A DNA stretch of 56,998 nt, from positions 1 to 56,998 of the forward strand of contig JAHRAK010000092.1 of the NCBI GenBank assembly GCA_020027535.1, read 5' to 3'. The notes below the pieces were generated by a model that saw only the letters and a program-made list of their open reading frames with translations, searched no databases and was not told the DNA's origin. Numbering within the stretch: the first letter of the stretch is position 1; every line of letters begins with the position of its first letter. The DNA comes from Nitrospirales bacterium (GTDB taxonomy: Bacteria; Nitrospirota; Nitrospiria; Nitrospirales; UBA8639). The position numbers were made by a program, and so were the translations under genes. Of the stretch, positions 36,615 through 45,864 are shown piece after piece.

Positions 36615-38420
36615 TTATGGCAGAGGCTCCATGACCTCTCGAGGGGTGGTCAGGGTGAAATAAAAGGTCGATCCCGTGCCGGGTTCGGATTCCACCCGGA
36701 TGCTCCCGCCGTATTTTTCCACGATTCGCTTGCAGATGGCCAAGCCGATCCCCGTGCCCGGGTATTCGCGTTGACCGTGTAATCGTTGAAAGATCGAAAA
36801 GATTCGACCGAGTTGATCGGCCGGGATCCCGACCCCATTGTCGCGGACCGAGAATTCCCACCCGTCCGGGAGTGCCTTGGCCCCCACGTGAATCCTGGCA
36901 GGAGAGTCTCCCTGGAATTTCAGCGCGTTGCCGATCAGGTTTTGGAAGACTTGAGTCAGGTGCGTCGGGTTGGCATGGACAATGGGAAGCGGATCATGGG
37001 TCACCTCGGCGTGACGTTCACGGACCGACGCGGAGAGATTATCCAGGACCTGTCGCAGCACGAGTTCACAGTCGGTGTGTTCAAGGGACTTGTTCTCGGA
37101 CCCGACTCGCGAGTATTCCAGCAGGTCGCGAATGAGCCGTTGCATGCGGGTGGCCCCGTCCACGGCGTACCCGATAAATTCATCGGCGTCTTTGTCCAGC
37201 TTGCCCCGGTATCGTTTGCCCAATAACTGCGTGTAACTCGCCACCATGCGAAGCGGTTCCTGCAGGTCGTGGGAAGCCACGTAGGCGAACTGCTGGAGTT
37301 CCGCGTTGGATTGGGCCAATTCCCGCGTCTTGTGCGCCAGTTCGGTTTCCTGGTGTTTGCGTCGGGTAATGTCCGTTTGGATCCCGATGAAATGCGTGAG
37401 CCGTCCCTGTTGATCCTTCACCGGTGCGATGTAGAGTTCGTTCCAAAACAGGCTGCCGTCCTTGCGATAGTTTTGGAGTTCCGCTTTGGCCTCGGTGCCC
37501 TCCCGGATCGCCCGGCGTATGGCGTCGAGCCCGGGTTGCTGATGGTCCGTGCCCTGGAGAAAACGGCAATTTCGGCCGAGCACTTCCTCCGCGGCATAGC
37601 CCGTGATTTTTTCAAACGCGGCGTTACAATAGACCGTGGGCATGTCGGGTTGACGGGCATCGGCAATGAGAATGCCGTTGGTCGCCGAATTGATCGATCG
37701 GTCGCGTAAGACCAGTTCTTCCTCATAGGCTTTGCGCTCATCCTCGGCTTTTTTGCGCTGCGCGATTTCCCGTTCGAGCCGGCGGCTGGCGGACACGACC
37801 TGCCGGGCCAGGACCAGGCTCAGGAGAATGACCAGGAATCCGATGACCGGTTCGCTTCTCAGGAGATTCATGATGTTCTGACGGGAACGGGCGCTGAACA
37901 ATTTGAACACGGTGTCGGCGTTTCGTTGAAGTTCATCTTGGAGTTGACTGAGCGAGGAAAAAGACTCCGACGGGAGGAAGTGATCGGGATCTTCGAGCAG
38001 CAGGGTTTTGGTTTTGACAAAAAATAGTTCAAGCAGGGAACGTTGCTGGTCCAACAGTTTCAGTATCCGGGCGGTCGGGGCTGCGGGAATGGAGCGCTGT
38101 TCGCCGGTGTACAGGTTCACGATCACGTCTCCCCCGTGTTGCAAGGCATCGACGGTGTGCAACAACGTCTGTTGCGTCTGTTGAAGATCCGTCCGGATCC
38201 CATGGGAAGCCAACATCGTTTCATTGAGATGCCGTTGAATCATCATGCGCTGGCGGCCCGCCACGTCCATCACCACCATGTCGAGTTCGTGCGTTGTCAC
38301 CGCGGTATGGGTAAAGGCCAGGATGGCGCCCAGCGCCAGAATGAAAATGACCACCATGGCGAGCAGACGTTGCCCGATGGTCAGTGGAAACCGTATCCCC
38401 GGTCCGGACGATGCATTCAT
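36615..38420 (-). CDS. Membrane LOV-domain histidine kinase with PilJ/NarX-like sensor
   Basis: The 601-residue kinase has two membrane helices (about residues 18-38 and 190-207) enclosing an extracytoplasmic domain with a P-box-like MDVAGRQRMMIQRHLNETML, as in NarX/PilJ-type sensors. A cytoplasmic PAS domain at about 235-352 has every LOV hallmark: GRNCRFLQG with the flavin-adduct Cys285, Asn317 in NYRKDG, Asn327 in FWNELY and Gln348 in GIQTDIT. The kinase core has the phospho-His384 in SHDLQEPL and N, G1 and G2 boxes (NLIGNALKF, DNGVGIP, GTGIGLAI). GGAGGG lies nine bases before the ATG. The likely partners are the adjacent receiver proteins. It should sense blue light and a second, periplasmic signal. 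Confidence 0.88.
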   Translation of the reverse strand: MNASSGPGIRFPLTIGQRLLAMVVIFILALGAILAFTHTAVTTHELDMVVMDVAGRQRMMIQRHLNETMLASHGIRTDLQQTQQTLLHTVDALQHGGDVIVNLYTGEQRSIPAAPTARILKLLDQQRSLLELFFVKTKTLLLEDPDHFLPSESFSSLSQLQDELQRNADTVFKLFSARSRQNIMNLLRSEPVIGFLVILLSLVLARQVVSASRRLEREIAQRKKAEDERKAYEEELVLRDRSINSATNGILIADARQPDMPTVYCNAAFEKITGYAAEEVLGRNCRFLQGTDHQQPGLDAIRRAIREGTEAKAELQNYRKDGSLFWNELYIAPVKDQQGRLTHFIGIQTDITRRKHQETELAHKTRELAQSNAELQQFAYVASHDLQEPLRMVASYTQLLGKRYRGKLDKDADEFIGYAVDGATRMQRLIRDLLEYSRVGSENKSLEHTDCELVLRQVLDNLSASVRERHAEVTHDPLPIVHANPTHLTQVFQNLIGNALKFQGDSPARIHVGAKALPDGWEFSVRDNGVGIPADQLGRIFSIFQRLHGQREYPGTGIGLAICKRIVEKYGGSIRVESEPGTGSTFYFTLTTPREVMEPLP

Positions 38421-38721: not shown

Positions 38722-39966
38722 ATGAGCGGCACGATGAAACGCGATCTTTCAAAGGACGACGACAGGCTCATCACCAGACTGTGGGCTATTCTGGATGGAA
38801 AGGATGCTCCTGAAACACGGATTGGCCAAGCTCTGGCTATGCTGGAGCAGGAATCTGAAACGGGAGAGACTCCGGGCCGTTCCTCCGAGGCGTTCGGGTC
38901 GTCTCTGCGCTTTGAGCAAGCAGATGGTTCACCGACCCCTGTAGGGGACGACCTGCGTATCGTCCCTGCCGCCAGGAAAAAGAAGCAGGCGCCGGTCATC
39001 ATTGGCAACAGCACGGCGATGCAAGCGGTATACGCGGCCATTCAGCGGGTCTCGAACACCTCGGCAACGGTCCTGCTCCGCGGAGAAAGTGGAACGGGCA
39101 AGGAGTTGGTCGCACAGCGCATTCATCTCTCCAGTGCACGCGCCGGTCAACCGTTCGTGGCGGTCCATTGCGCGGCGGTTCCGGAGACCCTGATTGAAAC
39201 GACCCTGTTCGGGCATGAACGGGGAGCCTTCACGGGAGCGAATCAGGCCAGAAAAGGACGACTGGAACAGGCACATGGCGGAACGCTGTTTCTTGATGAG
39301 GTCGGGGACATTCCCCTGTCAACCCAAGTCAAGCTCCTTCGCGTGCTGCAGGACAAAGAATTCGAGCGAGTCGGGAGTGGACAGACGCTCTCCGTGGACG
39401 TCCGGGTGATTGCCGCGACGCATCGTCATCTCGAAGGCATGGTCCGCTCAGGCGAGTTTCGGGAAGATTTGTATTATCGGCTGAACGTCGTACCGCTCAC
39501 GCTTCCTCCCCTACGTGCCCGGCGGGACGACGTGCATGCGCTCATGACGCATTTTCTGGACAAGTTCAATCGCGCCAATAGCCGGGACATTCAATTGGGG
39601 AAAGACTTGGTCGCTATGATGAGCGTCTATCATTGGCCCGGCAACATTCGTGAATTGCAGAATTGCATCGAACGCCTGGTCGTCCTGGCGGAGACGTCGC
39701 TGATCGAGTTACAGTCCATTCCCGAATCACTCACTCCTTATTTCGACCACATGCGAACCGTTCAATCCCAGTCCACTCCCAAGTCAAGCAGCCCTGCCTC
39801 ATCACAAACGCTCCCCGCGCGGTTGGATGCGCTCGAACGGGACCGTCTTCGAGAAGCCCTCAGGAAAGCCGGATGGGTCAAGGCGAAGGCGGCCAGGCTG
39901 TTGGGCATGACGCCGCGTCAAATCGCCTATCGAATCGAAAAATACCGGCTGCTCGAAGAAGCCTGA
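38722..39966 (+). CDS. Sigma-54-dependent activator without N-terminal receiver
   Basis: The 414-residue protein has a short, charged N-terminal region with no receiver or GAF domain. The AAA+ domain follows, with Walker A GESGTGKELVAQRI, intact GAFTGA (ERGAFTGANQ) and Walker B GGTLFLDEVGD, and then a Fis-type HTH (AKAARLLGMTPRQIAYRIEKY) that is strongly NifA-like. Without a sensory domain it may be constitutively active or controlled by another protein. ATG 38722 has GGGAG four bases upstream; a TTG at 38686 lies inside the terminator hairpin and is rejected. It lies upstream of the nirC-like genes. Its 3' end is duplicated at 41490-41766. Confidence 0.92.
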   Translation: MSGTMKRDLSKDDDRLITRLWAILDGKDAPETRIGQALAMLEQESETGETPGRSSEAFGSSLRFEQADGSPTPVGDDLRIVPAARKKKQAPVIIGNSTAMQAVYAAIQRVSNTSATVLLRGESGTGKELVAQRIHLSSARAGQPFVAVHCAAVPETLIETTLFGHERGAFTGANQARKGRLEQAHGGTLFLDEVGDIPLSTQVKLLRVLQDKEFERVGSGQTLSVDVRVIAATHRHLEGMVRSGEFREDLYYRLNVVPLTLPPLRARRDDVHALMTHFLDKFNRANSRDIQLGKDLVAMMSVYHWPGNIRELQNCIERLVVLAETSLIELQSIPESLTPYFDHMRTVQSQSTPKSSSPASSQTLPARLDALERDRLREALRKAGWVKAKAARLLGMTPRQIAYRIEKYRLLEEA

Positions 39967-40009
39967 GTGCCAGGTTACGTGTCGCTCGCCCGACCTGCCC
40001 GACCTACTC

Positions 40010-40445
40010 CTTCTGTCATCCCCGACCCCGATCGGGGATCCAGGGTTTTTGTCGTCGTCTACCCGAGCCTGAGATTTTGGAAAAATTCGCTTGCCATGTT
40101 TTTTTCGGCGCCATCTCTCTATACTATAAGCAGGGATTGGTATGAAAATATCCAACGACATCCCGAATTTGTCATTCCGGTTTTTCTCCTTCTGTCATCC
40201 CTGTAAATGTTCACTAATTCGTTGACAGAATGGTCAGCCTGAGCGGGGGGGACCAGATTCTTTTCCTCCCCTTTGTAAGTGGGCGCATTTCCGAAGAGGG
40301 AATGCGGGTGGGGTAGAGTCGCAGACACAAAGGGCGTCAGCACTGAACCCCCCGTGCAGGGGGGACAGGAGTTCTGCCGTCCCCCTGAGAAGGGGGATTG
40401 AGGGGGTTGTCTTTCAAAGGAGGGGAAGGAAAAGGTAGAAAGTGT
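40010..40445. repeat. Intergenic repeats between the activator and first nirC
   Basis: TGTCATCCCCGACCCCGATC with GGGGATCCAGGG (about 40015-40048) and a partial TTGTCATTCCGG copy (40167) are followed by CCTCCCCTTTGTAAG, AACCCCCCGTGCAGGGGGGA and GTCCCCCTGAGAAGGGGGAT (about 40264-40420). These explain most of the 597-base gap. I find no sigma-54 promoter of correct spacing here. Confidence 0.7.
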
Positions 40446-40469
40446 CAACGAATGACTGAACACAGACAG

Positions 40470-40508
40470 GAATCCCTCATGCAGGCCGCAAGCCTGCATG
40501 GGGGATTC
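40470..40508. other. Strong inverted repeat upstream of the first nirC
   Basis: GAATCCCTCATGCAGGC (40470-40486) pairs with GCCTGCATGGGGGATTC (40492-40508) with one T-G step and loop CGCAA. It is related to hairpins at about 21747 and 49583. No T-run follows. Confidence 0.6.
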
Positions 40509-40563
40509 TCGGATAGATACGATCATTTGTGTCTAACTTCCATATAGAGAAGAGGTGCGAACC

Positions 40564-41313
40564 ATGTATCAAGAAGATCTGAAACACATGTCGGACGTTT
40601 CAAGAAAAAAAGTGGACTATTTACTCCACTCGCCCGGCGGCTATTTTATTTTATCGGCCCTCGCGGGCATTTATTTGGGATTCGGCGTCTGTTTGATCTT
40701 CAGCGTGGGGGCCCCCTTCTATGCTGAAGGGTCGGCTGCCTTGAACCTGGTGATGGGCGTGTCATTCGGCGTCGGCCTGACGCTGGTCATCTTTGCCGGA
40801 TCGGAACTGTTCACGGGCAACACGATGGTCTGCACGATCGGCGCGCTGTCCCGGGCGATCGCCTGGAAATACGTGGGTTGGATTTTTTTATGGTCCTTCA
40901 TCGGGAATCTCGTCGGCTCGTTAGCTGTTGCCTGGTTGGTGGCGCAATCCGGAGTGGTCGCGCAGGCTCTTCAGGCGGATCTGTTCCTGAGCGTGGCTGA
41001 AACGAAAATGTCCGTCCCGGCCTGGGAACTCTTCAGCCGGGGAGTGCTCTGTAACATGCTGGTGTGCCTGGCCGTGTGGATGGCGGCGCGAACGACGAAT
41101 GAAACCGCGAAAATCATGGTGCTCTTCTGGGGCGTGTTCGCGTTCGTGGGAAGCGGATTCGAGCACAGCATTGCCAATCAATCGGCGTTGGGCATCGCGC
41201 TGTTCCTCCCGCACGGACAGGCGATTTCGTGGGAAGGATTCATGTGGAACCAGGTCTTCGTCGGACTGGGAAACATCGTCGGCGGAGCCTTGCTCGTCGG
41301 GGCGGCGTACTAG
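40564..41313 (+). CDS. nirC: Formate/nitrite-family channel, copy 1 (amber-shortened)
   Basis: This is an inner-membrane channel of the FNT family, likely for nitrite given the nirA gene downstream of copy 2. The six-helix protein includes SPGGYFILSALAGIYLGFG, the FAGSELFTGNTMV omega-loop, FIGNLVGSLAVAWLV, SRGVLCNMLVCLAVWMA and GSGFEHSIAN with its central-pore His. It ends at TAG (41311-41313) exactly where copy 2 has TGG (Trp), so the hydrophilic C-tail, still readable in frame to 41376, is lost. All membrane helices are kept, so the channel may work. ATG 40564 has AGAGG nearby; GTG 40555 is less likely. Confidence 0.88.
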   Translation: MYQEDLKHMSDVSRKKVDYLLHSPGGYFILSALAGIYLGFGVCLIFSVGAPFYAEGSAALNLVMGVSFGVGLTLVIFAGSELFTGNTMVCTIGALSRAIAWKYVGWIFLWSFIGNLVGSLAVAWLVAQSGVVAQALQADLFLSVAETKMSVPAWELFSRGVLCNMLVCLAVWMAARTTNETAKIMVLFWGVFAFVGSGFEHSIANQSALGIALFLPHGQAISWEGFMWNQVFVGLGNIVGGALLVGAAY

Positions 41314-41454
41314 CTGAGCAGTCCCTATCGCGTGACCAAAGAAGACAAGCCGAGAGAGATGTTGACTCGTCCTACATAGGTGACGTGATCGGGAAATCCC
41401 ATCGTTGCGATGAGAGCAGGATTCGTGACTGACGTGCAACGGAATCGGGGTGCG
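41314..41454. other. Duplicated nirC tail and spacer after copy 1
   Basis: After the amber codon the sequence continues to match copy 2: the C-tail coding region (CTGAGCAGTCCCTATCGCGT and TTGACTCGTCCTACATAG) and the nirC-nirA spacer (GATCGGGAAATCCCATCG, GACGTGCAACGGAA). A short in-tail deletion is visible relative to 42804-42903. Confidence 0.75.
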
Positions 41455-41766
41455 ATGAATAAATTGGAAATATGGAAACAAGAAAGAGATGGCCTGGAAA
41501 CATTCGCGAATGACAAAATGGCATTGAACGGTTGGTCGTCTTGGCAGAGGCGTCGCTGATCGTTCAATCCTAGTCCCCCCAAGTCAAGCAGCCTTGCATC
41601 CCAACAAACGCTCTCCGCACGGTTGGATGCGATCGAACGGGACCGTCTTCGAGAAGCCCTCAAGAAAGCAGGATGGGTCAAGGCGAAGGCGGCCAGGCTG
41701 TTGGGCATGACTCCACGTCAAATCGCCTACCGGATCGAACAGTACCGGCTTATCGAAGAACCTTGA
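41455..41766 (+). pseudogene. Chimeric remnant: nirA 5' end joined to activator 3' end
   Basis: Positions 41455 to about 41490 match the first 12 codons of nirA (MNKLEIWKQERD). The sequence then switches abruptly to a diverged copy of the activator gene, from its GNIRELQN-coding region to its TGA at 41764-41766, with an internal loss of about 54 bases. The HTH part (KAGWVKAKAARLLGMTPRQI) is still readable from about 41665 in one frame. It is the scar of a regulator-nirC-nirA tandem duplication followed by a deletion. Confidence 0.85.
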
Positions 41767-41812
41767 TCGCCTGAGGCGTACTTGGTTCTCGTCAGTGCAT
41801 CCCCTACCGCCA

Positions 41813-41827
41813 AGACATTTTTGTCTC
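41813..41827. promoter_or_regulatory. AGACA-TTTT-TGTCTC activator-like site
   Basis: The small palindrome AGACATTTTTGTCT with a following C carries the TGTCTC core. It lies 104 bases upstream of the sigma-54 -24 box at 41931. Confidence 0.45.
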
Positions 41828-41930
41828 TTTGCCTACAATAGAGTGCGTGATGAACAGGAATGTCCGGTTGGGTGAGAGGGTTTTGTCATGATTACGCTTG
41901 ATTCTTTGAGGTTTTTGAAAAAATGTGTTC

Positions 41931-41946
41931 TGGCATGGCTCTTGCG
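41931..41946 (+). promoter_or_regulatory. Sigma-54 promoter of nirC copy 2
   Basis: TGGCATG-GCTC-TTGCG has GG and GC exactly ten bases apart and matches the consensus TGGCACG-N4-TTGC at all but one defined position. The nirC ATG is 108 bases downstream. Confidence 0.75.
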
Positions 41947-42053
41947 AGAAGAATAGAAATGAATGCTTGGCGAATAGCGCATCTGCCTGGCTGTGGCGAT
42001 AGAGATACAATCGTTTTTTTCTCGTGTTTAAAAAGAGAGAAGGGGTTCGAACA

Positions 42054-42902
42054 ATGTATCAAGAAGATCTCAAACGCATGTCGGACGTTTCAAGGAAAAA
42101 AGTCGACTATTTTCTCCATTCGCCTGGGGGCTACTTCATTTTGTCGGCCCTGGCAGGCATCTATTTGGGATTGGGGATCTGTTTAATCTTTAGTGTGGGG
42201 GCGCCGTTCTCCGCTCAAGGGTCGGCTGCGCTGAAACTTGTGATGGGAGCGTCATTTGGCATTGCCCTGACGTTGGTGATCTTTGCCGGATCGGAATTGT
42301 TCACGGGCAACAATATGGTCTGCACCATCGGCGCGCTTTCCAGGGCGATAACCTGGAAATACGTGGGCTGGATTTTCTTATGGTCATTCATCGGGAATCT
42401 GGTCGGCTCGTTAGTCGTTTCCTGGCTGATCGCTCACTCCGGCGTGGTGGCCAAGGCTCCTCAAGCGGATCTGTTCGTGAAGGTTGCGGCCATGAAAATG
42501 TCTGCGCCGGCCTGGGAACTCTTCAGCCGGGGCATTCTCTGTAACATGCTGGTGTGTCTGGCTGTGTGGATGGCGGCCCGTACCGCCAATGAAACGGCGA
42601 AAATTATGCTGATCTTCTGGTGTTTGTTCGCGTTCGTGGGGAGCGGATTTGAGCACAGCATTGCGAACCAATCGGTATTGGGAATCGCGCTGTTCCTCCC
42701 GCATGGAGAGGCGATTTCTTGGGGCGGATTCATGTGGAACCAGGTTTTCGTCGGATTGGGAAACATTGTCGGCGGGGCCGTACTCGTCGGGGCAGCGTAT
42801 TGGATGAGCAGCCCCTATCGCGTCACCGAATCGGTCATCGCTCACCCTGCGACAATGGAAGAAAAGCGCGAGACAAGAGAATTGTTGACTCGTCCTGCAT
42901 AG
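42054..42902 (+). CDS. nirC: Formate/nitrite-family channel, copy 2
   Basis: The 282-residue FNT channel is a close paralog of the gene at 40564, with the same six helices, FAGSELFTGNNMV loop and GSGFEHSIANQ pore His. It has an intact hydrophilic tail (WMSSPYRVTESVIAHPATME and onward) that copy 1 lacks. It lies 77 bases upstream of nirA and downstream of a sigma-54 promoter, so it should bring nitrite to NirA. ATG 42054 is homologous to the copy 1 start; AAGGGG lies about ten bases upstream. Confidence 0.93.
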   Translation: MYQEDLKRMSDVSRKKVDYFLHSPGGYFILSALAGIYLGLGICLIFSVGAPFSAQGSAALKLVMGASFGIALTLVIFAGSELFTGNNMVCTIGALSRAITWKYVGWIFLWSFIGNLVGSLVVSWLIAHSGVVAKAPQADLFVKVAAMKMSAPAWELFSRGILCNMLVCLAVWMAARTANETAKIMLIFWCLFAFVGSGFEHSIANQSVLGIALFLPHGEAISWGGFMWNQVFVGLGNIVGGAVLVGAAYWMSSPYRVTESVIAHPATMEEKRETRELLTRPA

Positions 42903-42979
42903 ATGCTGTGATCGGGAAATCCCATCGCTGTGATGGGAGCAGGATTCGTGGCTGACGTGCAACGGAAGCGGGGGGTGTG

Positions 42980-44608
42980 ATGAATAAATTGGAAATATGG
43001 AAACAAGAAAGAGATGGGTTGGATATCAGGAGTGATCTTGCTCGATTTGCCCTTGAGGGGTGGGAATCGATTTCGGAGGCTGACGTGCAACGCCTGAAGT
43101 GGTGCGGGCTGTTTCTCAGGAATCCAACACCAGGGTATTTCATGGTGCGTGTACGCATTCCAGGAGGACGCGCTACGGCGACACAACTTCGAACGCTGGC
43201 CGAGTTGGCAGGGATATTTGGCAATGGGCTGTTGGATATGACCACCCGGCAACAAATTCAAATTCGGCAACTACGGATAGAAGATGTGCCGGACGTGTAC
43301 AAACGGATGGAGGAAGTAGGGCTGACGGCATTGCAAACCGGCATGGACAATATCCGGAATATTATGACCTGCCCGGTAGCCGGTCTGTCTCCATCAGAGT
43401 GCTTGGATGCAACCTCTCTGGTCCAGGCCTTAACGCAAGAGATTGTAGGGAATCGGGAGTATTCGAATTTGCCTAGAAAATTCAATGTGGTGATTACGGG
43501 ATGCCCCGACAATTGTTTGCATGCAGAAACGCAAGATCTCGCGTTGGTTCCAGCCACCAAAGAAATAGAGGGAGAGATGAAGCAAGGATTCAATGTGCTC
43601 ATCGGTGGGAAACTCGGGTCCGGCGGCTACCGGATTGCCACGCCGTTGGACGTGTTTGTCCTTCCCGAAGAGGCCGTGGCGGTGTCGTGTGCCGTGATTA
43701 AAGCGTTTCGCGATTATGGATTTCGTGATTCCAGAACAACGGCACGGCTCGCGTTTCTGTTGGAGGAATGGGGCGAACTCCGTTTTCGGGTAGAAGTTGA
43801 ACGTCGGCTTGGTCGAGGATTACCGGCTGCAGGACAAGATGTACGCAACTTTACTGTCAATACCCATGGAGGTATTTTCAGGCAATCCCGACCGGGATTG
43901 AATTACGTGGGGTTGCACGTCCCCGTTGGGCGAATTCCTGCCGACGAGTTGGGAAGACTCGCCGGTCTGGCAGAGAAATACGGAACGAGCGAATTGCGTG
44001 TAGGGGCCAATCAATCCATCGTCATTCCGAACATCCACGACAAACAACTCGCAACTTTTCTCGAAGAGCCGTTGCTCGCGAAGTATGGCTACAATCCTTC
44101 TCCACTGCGGAAAGGGTTAGTCAGTTGCGTCGGGAACGATTATTGTAACCTCGCCGTGATTGAAACCAAGAGTCAAGCAATGAAAACCGCTCGTGCCCTG
44201 GAAGAAAAAGTTGGAACGGAGATCAAACCGATTACCATGCATTGGTCCGGATGCGTAGCCGGGTGTGGCAACCATTTAGTTGCGGACGTGGGTCTGCTGG
44301 GGAAAAAGATCAAACGGTGTGGTCAGATCGTAGAGGCGGTGGACGTCTATGTCGGTGGAAGATCCGGCCCGGCCCCGAAGCTCGCGACGAAATTATTAGA
44401 AGATGTTCCGTGTCATGAACTCCCTGATGTCTTAGCGGGGATCTTGCCCTATCACACCCGCGAAAAAATGTACCGGGAGAAAAAGAAAACTCGAACAAAA
44501 CCAAAGGGTTCGCACAGTAAGGGACAGGAGTCGCAAGAACGTCACTCGACTCAACTGTCTCAGAAGGGGGACGTCGTTCCTGAAGGGCAGCAACTGATTC
44601 AGGTGTGA
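42980..44608 (+). CDS. nirA: Ferredoxin-nitrite reductase NirA
   Basis: NirA reduces nitrite to ammonium with electrons from ferredoxin for assimilation. The 542-residue protein has the two-fold nitrite/sulfite-reductase repeat: PGYFMVRVRIPGGRATATQL and DMTTRQQIQIR near the N-terminus, and a second copy with LHVPVGRIPADEL and GANQSIVIPNI. The sirohaem/[4Fe-4S] cysteines are Cys383 and Cys389 (SCVGNDYCNLA), then Cys425 and Cys429 (GCVAGCGNH). An assimilatory sulfite reductase is the alternative, but the adjacent FNT channel favours nitrite. The last 50 residues are a Lys/Gln-rich tail. ATG 42980 follows a GGGGG stretch. Confidence 0.9.
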   Translation: MNKLEIWKQERDGLDIRSDLARFALEGWESISEADVQRLKWCGLFLRNPTPGYFMVRVRIPGGRATATQLRTLAELAGIFGNGLLDMTTRQQIQIRQLRIEDVPDVYKRMEEVGLTALQTGMDNIRNIMTCPVAGLSPSECLDATSLVQALTQEIVGNREYSNLPRKFNVVITGCPDNCLHAETQDLALVPATKEIEGEMKQGFNVLIGGKLGSGGYRIATPLDVFVLPEEAVAVSCAVIKAFRDYGFRDSRTTARLAFLLEEWGELRFRVEVERRLGRGLPAAGQDVRNFTVNTHGGIFRQSRPGLNYVGLHVPVGRIPADELGRLAGLAEKYGTSELRVGANQSIVIPNIHDKQLATFLEEPLLAKYGYNPSPLRKGLVSCVGNDYCNLAVIETKSQAMKTARALEEKVGTEIKPITMHWSGCVAGCGNHLVADVGLLGKKIKRCGQIVEAVDVYVGGRSGPAPKLATKLLEDVPCHELPDVLAGILPYHTREKMYREKKKTRTKPKGSHSKGQESQERHSTQLSQKGDVVPEGQQLIQV

Positions 44609-44612
44609 AATC

Positions 44613-45134
44613 ATGAGGAACTGGGCTGAAGCGTTGAATGTTCGGCATGACCATCGGAAAGACATGATTCTTGACTGGGGGATTGAAAAATGCGTCGAGG
44701 TCACAATAAGATACTCCCCGGTCATGCAAACCCTCGACGTTGATCATCCCGAACTGCCGGACCTGCAATTCGTGCTCATGGTGGCGGCCTTGTGCACGGC
44801 GGACATCCCGAGCCTGAACGTGCCGGAAGACGTTCGACGAATGGTCTTCGACCGTTGCTGGGCGTTGCTGCACGACATACCCCCGCCAACGGAACCATCC
44901 CAACGCGTATTGGATCTGCGAGAAGGGGACGACGTGACCCTTGAGGCACTCGTCGAAGTCATCCGCAGCACACTGCATGAACATGGCTACTCCCGCATGA
45001 CCTGGGACCAGGGGCCCAGTGAACCGAGCCAATCCACCAGCCCGGATGCCCAACCCCTGATTGATCGCTTGCAGTATTGGGACCCTGCTCATCCGCCACC
45101 GGTGGACGGGCCGCCCGAGACGAGTCACAACTGA
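44613..45134 (+). CDS. Hypothetical protein downstream of nirA
   Basis: The 173-residue soluble protein starts five bases after the nirA stop, so it is probably co-transcribed. It has no signal or membrane segment. The middle (LPDLQFVLMVAALCTADIPS) is hydrophobic, and the C-terminal 45 residues are Pro/Ser-rich and likely disordered. I do not recognise the family. Placement suggests a role with nitrite assimilation, for example as a maturation factor, but nothing in the sequence proves it. Confidence 0.6.
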   Translation: MRNWAEALNVRHDHRKDMILDWGIEKCVEVTIRYSPVMQTLDVDHPELPDLQFVLMVAALCTADIPSLNVPEDVRRMVFDRCWALLHDIPPPTEPSQRVLDLREGDDVTLEALVEVIRSTLHEHGYSRMTWDQGPSEPSQSTSPDAQPLIDRLQYWDPAHPPPVDGPPETSHN

Positions 45135-45469: not shown

Positions 45470-45864
45470 GGCGTTTTTTCTCCCTCTGTGATCCTCGACG
45501 CCCCCTCCGGTCATCCTCGACGCTTGTCCCCGACCTGATCGGGGATCCAGGCGATCTATAGGATCCAGCGTCTTTGCCTTTTCCTGCGTCCGTGAAGACG
45601 CGGGACGGCACCCTTCGGCTTCGCTCAGGGCAGGCGCAGGCCGTCTCCTACAACCGCAAACCGTAGGAACAGGCCCCCGTGCCTGTCCGTCAATCTGTCG
45701 GTTTATGCTATGGATTGTTGTGCTATGCTATGATCTGCTGCAATATGCTATGAACTGTCGGGTTACGCTACGCAACCCGACCTACGGAGCTCATCACCCT
45801 CACCTTCATCCTCTCCCATCAAGGGAGAGGAGACTTAGAGGAGGTTGGGGTGAGGGTGAAACGG
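45470..45864. repeat. Repeat-filled intergenic region
   Basis: GTCCCCGACCTGATCGGGGA (about 45525-45545), GGGACGGCACCCTTCGGCTT (45602), a GTAGGAACAGGC/GCCTGTCC hairpin (about 45664-45688), four 20-base tandem units at 45695-45774, and CCCTCTCC/GGAGAGGA elements at 45795-45858. I see no gene in this 395-base stretch. Confidence 0.75.
45695..45774. repeat. Four 20-bp degenerate tandem repeats (TATGCTATG core)
   Basis: Units are CTGTCGGTTTATGCTATGGA (45695), TTGTTGTGCTATGCTATGAT (45715), CTGCTGCAATATGCTATGAA (45735) and CTGTCGGGTTACGCTACGCA (45755). All are exactly 20 bases; the last merges into the GGGTTACGCTACGC repeat family. Confidence 0.75.

Follow-up and report, generated by a model that had tools for sequence, protein, structure and literature searches.

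A decayed duplication scar between two nirC genes and a proposed sigma-54 regulon for nitrite and cyanate use in a Nitrospirales genome

Sigma-54 activators of the NtrC type, such as NifA and NtrC, carry an AAA+ domain and a Fis-type helix-turn-helix (HTH) domain and are associated with paired palindromes upstream of a -24/-12 promoter. In Nitrospirales, a survey of the order describes nitrite assimilation genes in which the NirC channel and the ferredoxin-type nitrite reductase NirA are adjacent (PMC12342949); the accessible parts of that survey mention neither regulators of nirA nor duplication. Both arrangements recur in the stretch analyzed here (the window), which is the 56,998-nucleotide contig JAHRAK010000092.1 of assembly GCA_020027535.1, contig 15 of a 2.23 Mb draft genome. 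Its gene order of interest is sensor kinase, reg (an orphan sigma-54 activator), nirC1, a scar, nirC2, nirA, and orfZ (Table 1). The window genome (G000) belongs to the GTDB genus bin75, proposed as Candidatus Nitrosymbion for nitrite oxidisers of lineage IVb that are mostly associated with sponges (PMC11812461), and the window bacterium is probably a sponge-associated nitrite oxidiser as well. Our favored history, to which we assign a probability of roughly 0.6, is that an old tandem duplication was cut by a microhomology deletion, the copies diverged, nirC1 was freed from its control, the block was exchanged between species, and reg governs a regulon. The regulon, rather than the scar, is the useful lead.

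The scar occupies 41314-41766, and its pieces were found by direct-repeat search and pairwise alignment. The same comparison gave 85% identity between the two nirC genes over 40546-40845 and 42036-42335. Within the scar, the nirC tail and spacer (41348-41450) matched 42871-42973 with 87% identity, and the end of the spacer with the start of nirA (41447-41498) matched 42972-43023 with 94% identity over 52 bases. The 3' end of the activator followed in two stretches, 39634-39706 versus 41490-41562 (82% identity) and 39778-39971 versus 41578-41771 (89% identity). All of these matches are far beyond chance; the activator of a related genome found 41561-41769 at E = 6e-64. The nirA scrap (nirA') opens with ATG at 41455, has homology spanning 12-14 codons, and was found by a NirA protein search (tblastn) alone at E = 1.3e-4. 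It meets the activator fragment (reg') inside AGATGGCCTGGAAAC, with a 3-base overlap, TGG. Relative to the original, reg' is missing 54 bases and has an in-frame TGA, and it reaches the natural stop at 41766. Pairwise alignment of spacer 1 with spacer 2 gave no clear overall homology beyond a short stretch before the start codon. A preliminary description of the window had listed nirC tail and spacer, nirA start, and activator end in this order, with a junction visible in the sequence; we recovered every piece, the homology of the last piece to the activator, and the junction itself.

Table 1 Features of the nirC locus, in window coordinates.
Feature	Position	Strand	Evidence or remark
Sensor kinase HK	36615-38420	-	
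reg, orphan sigma-54 activator	38731-39966	+	PF00158 (E = 8e-73), PF02954; orthologues 5' of nirC-nirA in relatives
Repeat elements	40168-40473		Repeated dozens of times elsewhere in this genome
nirC1, formate/nitrite channel family	40564-41313	+	PF01226 (E = 4e-65); alignment with relatives; promoter scan
nirC1 tail and nirC-nirA spacer	41314-41454	+	Copy of about 42791-42979
nirA', first 12 codons of lost nirA	41455-41490	+	94% identity to 42972-43023; NirA tblastn match
reg', decayed 3' end of second activator copy	41490-41766	+	Repeat and pairwise alignment; decay counts
Upstream activating sequence UAS1, GACATTTTTGTC	41814-41825		Sole exact GACA-N4-TGTC in the 57 kb window
UAS2, weaker copy, AACAGGAATGTC	41853-41864		Palindrome comparison
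Sigma-54 promoter of nirC2, CTGGCATGGCTCTTGCG	41930-41946	+	Consensus scan
nirC2, intact, formate/nitrite channel family	42054-42902	+	PF01226 (E = 2e-67)
nirA, ferredoxin-type nitrite reductase	42980-44608	+	PF01077, PF03460; NF007125 (E = 4e-162)
orfZ, conserved protein	44613-45134	+	Right deletion edge of nirA-less relatives at 44677-44681

The genomes compared were mostly drafts, with few complete. Among 396 Nitrospirota genomes searched for the junction pattern with up to three mismatches, only two carried it: the window genome and G001, the metagenome-assembled genome (MAG) Nitrospira sp. bin75, which is among the window's nearest relatives. An assembly or binning artefact that fused the locus versions of two strains might be suspected in a draft MAG of 140 contigs with contamination of 3.33, but G001 was reported independently, has its own diverged flanks, and is ~95% identical through the same junction, and we give an artefact next to no credence. 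The last 59 codons of reg' differ between G000 and G001 by 10 non-synonymous and 1 synonymous substitutions, against 4.2 and 7.8 in the matching stretch of intact reg, and reg' is therefore a dead, non-coding, unconstrained remnant. We rejected the scar as a small conserved gene, as the short frame spanning the junction ends elsewhere in G001 and reg' is frame-broken. An independent conserved gene in relatives, a finding that would have told against the preliminary description, was likewise not what we saw: among the genomes searched, the scar is confined to the two carriers, and it is decaying.

Neither nirC copy is the closest relative of the other. In the NirC tree, nirC1 of both carriers joined the single nirC of G012, G006, G003, and G010 (100/100), and nirC2 of both carriers was sister to this nirC1 clade in codon and protein trees. 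Approximately unbiased (AU) tests rejected forcing the four carrier copies together (p = 3e-4), forcing the two window copies together (p = 1e-7), and having nirC1 follow the species tree (p = 0.002). Silent divergence (dS) between nirC1 and nirC2 was 0.5-0.8 (about 0.6), which lies between the subclade split (0.38-0.65 for rpoB and gyrB) and the G013 split (0.7-1.1). Because the copies are not mutual closest relatives, either their split predates the carrier species or a close relative supplied the second unit. A recent tandem duplication and later deletion, both within the lineage of the window, would produce the clean junction and the sequence in which the pieces follow one another, but it is contradicted by both AU tests on the carrier copies, by a nirC1-nirC2 dS about twice the distance between the carrier species, and by the same scar in G001. 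To rescue this scenario, the nirC of relatives would have to have converted nirC1 on a massive scale, and we consider the scenario highly improbable. The preliminary description held that the scar is explained only by tandem duplication and deletion. That the unit was present in two copies, of which the first lost its nirA and the second most of its activator, stands; a duplication within this lineage does not.

The block has also moved, in the simplest reading. A species tree from rpoB and gyrB grouped G001 with G012 (99.3/99), with G006 joining next (95.8/92) and G000 after it, which means that the carriers are not sister species. Between G000 and G001, dS inside the block was 0.076 for reg, 0.071 for nirC2, and 0.126 for nirA. 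Outside it, values were 0.27 (HK), 0.40 (orfZ), 0.33 (the ABC permease gene abc), 0.38 (rpoB), 0.35 (gyrB), and 0.31 (cynS), and a partial cyn transporter gene (partial nrtA) had 0.17. Silent divergence of the three block genes was ~3-5x below that of six of the seven other genes, which form the whole background. Slow evolution as the mere cause of the low values was rejected for reg, whose dS from G000 was 0.30 to G006 and 0.36 to G012. Identity between G000 and G001 climbs near 38.4 kb and drops near 44.4 kb, and nirC1 has a mosaic pattern, with 95-100% identity over most of its length and 80% over one 100-base stretch. Because dS is far below background though the carriers are not sisters, the block would have been exchanged between species by homologous recombination, a point that the preliminary description had overlooked. 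In G001, reg and nirC1 are on separate contigs, and a transposase-like gene (judged by eye) and a contig break follow the activator (L037, 8351-9322).

The distribution of the locus bears on where the second unit came from. Both nirA and two nirC genes were present in 2 of the 14 bin75 genomes, G000 and G001, and nirC was absent from eight. G006 and G012 have kinase-reg-nirC-orfZ without nirA, and G003 and G010 have kinase-nirC-orfZ without nirA, with reg elsewhere in the genome. Other genera nearby have a single-copy reg-nirC-nirA, or nirC-nirA without reg. Homology of the nirA-less G006 and G012 to the window ends at 41371-41372 and restarts at 44677 in both, and the deletion edges of G003 and G010 are close to these. 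As four nirA-less relatives from both subclades have nearly the same edges, nirA loss may be ancestral. The window's lineage might then already have lacked nirA, with reg-nirC1-orfZ as in those relatives, when recombination placed a whole reg-nirC-nirA unit, donated by a near relative that is absent from the sampled genomes, next to nirC1; the scar would be the meeting point of resident remnant and incoming unit. The similarity of the block in two non-sister species, far above that of most genes, and the position of nirC2 outside all nirC1 would fit such an origin. However, the scar preserves the tail of nirC1, the spacer, and the start of nirA, evidence that nirC1 itself was once followed by a nirA in this arrangement, and no donor genome is known. 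Furthermore, the distance of nirC2 from the nearest genus outside bin75 is no smaller than its distance from nirC1, and a grouping with that genus was weakly rejected (p = 0.04). We regard this origin as possible and rather unlikely.

Several observations weigh against our favored history of an old tandem. The preliminary description had looked to relatives for the undeleted duplication or a single-copy ancestor; single-copy reg-nirC-nirA does occur in neighboring genera, but no undeleted tandem was found among the Nitrospirota genomes searched. The silent distance between reg' and reg over 59 codons was 0.30, less than the 0.6 between nirC1 and nirC2, and the tree position of reg' is unsupported, so the two parts of the second unit may have had separate histories. 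Dating by reg' was rejected for the same lack of support and because the fragment is too short. The nearly common deletion edges suggest that nirA was lost already in the common ancestor of the nirA-less species; the second unit of the two carriers therefore looks re-acquired, and these edges favor regain of nirC2-nirA over retention. Lastly, binding of reg to the palindromes described below is a prediction.

The regulatory sites set the two nirC genes apart. A consensus scan found a sigma-54 promoter before nirC2 in both carriers, with a score of 13.3 in the window against a background of four sites scoring at least 13 in 114 kb; it had no match before nirC1 or before the lone nirC of other bin75 genomes. 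This agrees with the preliminary description, which had reported a promoter for the second copy only. At ~116 and ~77 bases 5' of the nirC2 promoter lie two palindromes of the GACA-N4-TGTC type. About one GACA-N4-TGTC match per window is expected by chance, and the evidence lies in position and recurrence. Promoter and palindromes were found together at all seven nirC loci behind reg or reg' that are not of the nirC1 type (nirC2 of G000 and G001, and five loci from neighboring genera), and the pair was missing at loci without an adjacent reg and at all nirC1-type loci. Proximity of reg alone is no explanation, because reg adjoins a site-less nirC1 in G006, G012, and the window.

A gapped pattern of palindrome plus promoter had 16 matches in 49 genomes of the family and none in a reversed control. 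Fifteen of the 16 were upstream of nirC or cynA, the cyanate transporter gene that leads cynABD-cynS; the nirC2 site itself is one base beyond the gap limit of the pattern. The sixteenth match (L104 1501-1627, in G015) is before iron-sulfur and membrane-subunit genes, as judged by eye, and may be chance. The arrangement precedes cyn across the genus, and in several relatives (e.g. G003, G005, G009, and G010) reg is divergent beside the cyn operon, away from the nirC locus (L040, L043, and other subclade-2 loci). From these sites we infer that reg binds the palindromes and activates nirC2-nirA and cyn, and that nirC1 is outside its control. We found no description of a joint nitrite-cyanate regulon in the open-licence papers searched.

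The nirC leaders in neighboring genera contain a strong terminator-like hairpin, AAAGGCGCC...GGCGCCTTTTTT, with z of about -4 to -5 (L013 5750-5870, L018 5850-5980, L019 5790-5930). By analogy, the hairpin resembles the attenuators of nitrate-assimilation operons. The hairpin is lost from the nirC2 leader of the window (41946-42053, z +1.2). An ANTAR-domain protein was present in 49/49 family genomes.

All six nirC1-type proteins are changed at six positions where 18-19 other NirC show no variation (I42V, K61N, A71G, N87T, C190G, and L191V in nirC2 numbering), and nirC2 retains the invariant residues. The dN/dS among nirC1-type genes was 0.08-0.13, and these genes were therefore under purifying selection, also in genomes without nirA. 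Selection on NirC in NirA-less genomes raises the question of the channel's cargo; for NirC encoded near cynS, the Nitrospirales survey puts forward cyanate import as a candidate role (PMC12342949). The original nirC1 frame extended to 41379. The window gene stops early at a TAG (41311-41313), which falls at the end of the last membrane helix and which the preliminary description had missed; nirC2 and the nirC1 of G001 have TGG there. In the nirC1-type gene of G006, a TAG interrupts early. The regions conserved in relatives upstream of nirC1 are 40079-40128 and 40519 onward, and the repeat elements split the first of these from nirC1. Scores of 175 bits for nirC1 and 210 for nirC2 are below the NCBIfam NirC equivalog cut-off of 293; the name NirC here rests on family and neighborhood, and nitrite transport is putative.

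Among the other genes, reg had an AAA+ sigma-54 interaction domain and a Fis-type HTH in the Pfam scan, which found no receiver domain in it and places it outside the NtrC two-component response regulators. NirA contained both NIR_SIR Pfam domains and scored 540 bits to NF007125 (curated cut-off 594). Pfam and NCBIfam scans gave no match for orfZ, which is conserved near nirC across the family. Tandem-like repeats of ~20 bases each lie 3' of orfZ (45693-45770, direct-repeat search). An Rfam search of the locus and its relatives gave tRNAs and one chance match only.

In the favored history, reg-nirC-nirA would have doubled in tandem before the main radiation of genus bin75, and a join at the 3-base microhomology, which is present in the sequence, would have removed almost the entire first nirA and most of the second reg. 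The nirC2-nirA pair would have kept the ancestral control, in which reg is predicted to act from two sites ~80-115 bases upstream on the sigma-54 promoter; reg very likely also turns on the cyanate operon cynABD-cynS. The first copy, nirC1, would have lost promoter and UAS, changed at the six invariant residues, and stayed under purifying selection. Loss of nirC2-nirA in the nirC-bearing relatives would have left nirC1 as their sole copy. The block reg-nirC1-scar-nirC2-nirA would then have passed by homologous recombination between the window species and the bin75 species, or from a third species to both.

More broadly, we tentatively propose that an orphan sigma-54 activator of lineage IV Nitrospirales controls nirC-nirA and cynABD-cynS via paired GACA-N4-TGTC sites, that nitrite assimilation was regained in the mostly nirA-less Ca. 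Nitrosymbion by cross-species recombination of a scarred locus with two units, and that the freed nirC1 evolved into a divergent channel retained for some role apart from supplying NirA. The age of each copy and its promoter can be judged relative to the other, and the locus therefore lets loss and possible regain of nitrite assimilation be followed in mostly sponge-associated nitrite oxidisers. The paired palindromes point to a specific regulon, open to testing, in which a single activator would link the use of nitrite to that of cyanate.

With its ordered partial copies, microhomology join, and frame-broken decaying fragment, the scar resembles other tandem duplications with partial deletion (pseudogene remnants), and in itself it is an ordinary duplication-deletion remnant. 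Unlike such remnants, its paralogues predate the carrier species and the locus appears to have moved later between species. Compared with NifA and NtrC, reg is without a receiver or recognised N-terminal sensor domain, its proposed site is GACA-N4-TGTC, and its proposed targets are nirC-nirA and cyn. Compared with nirC-nirA assimilation as described in the Nitrospirales survey (PMC12342949), this locus has two nirC genes and predicted sigma-54 control with palindromes that also mark cyn.

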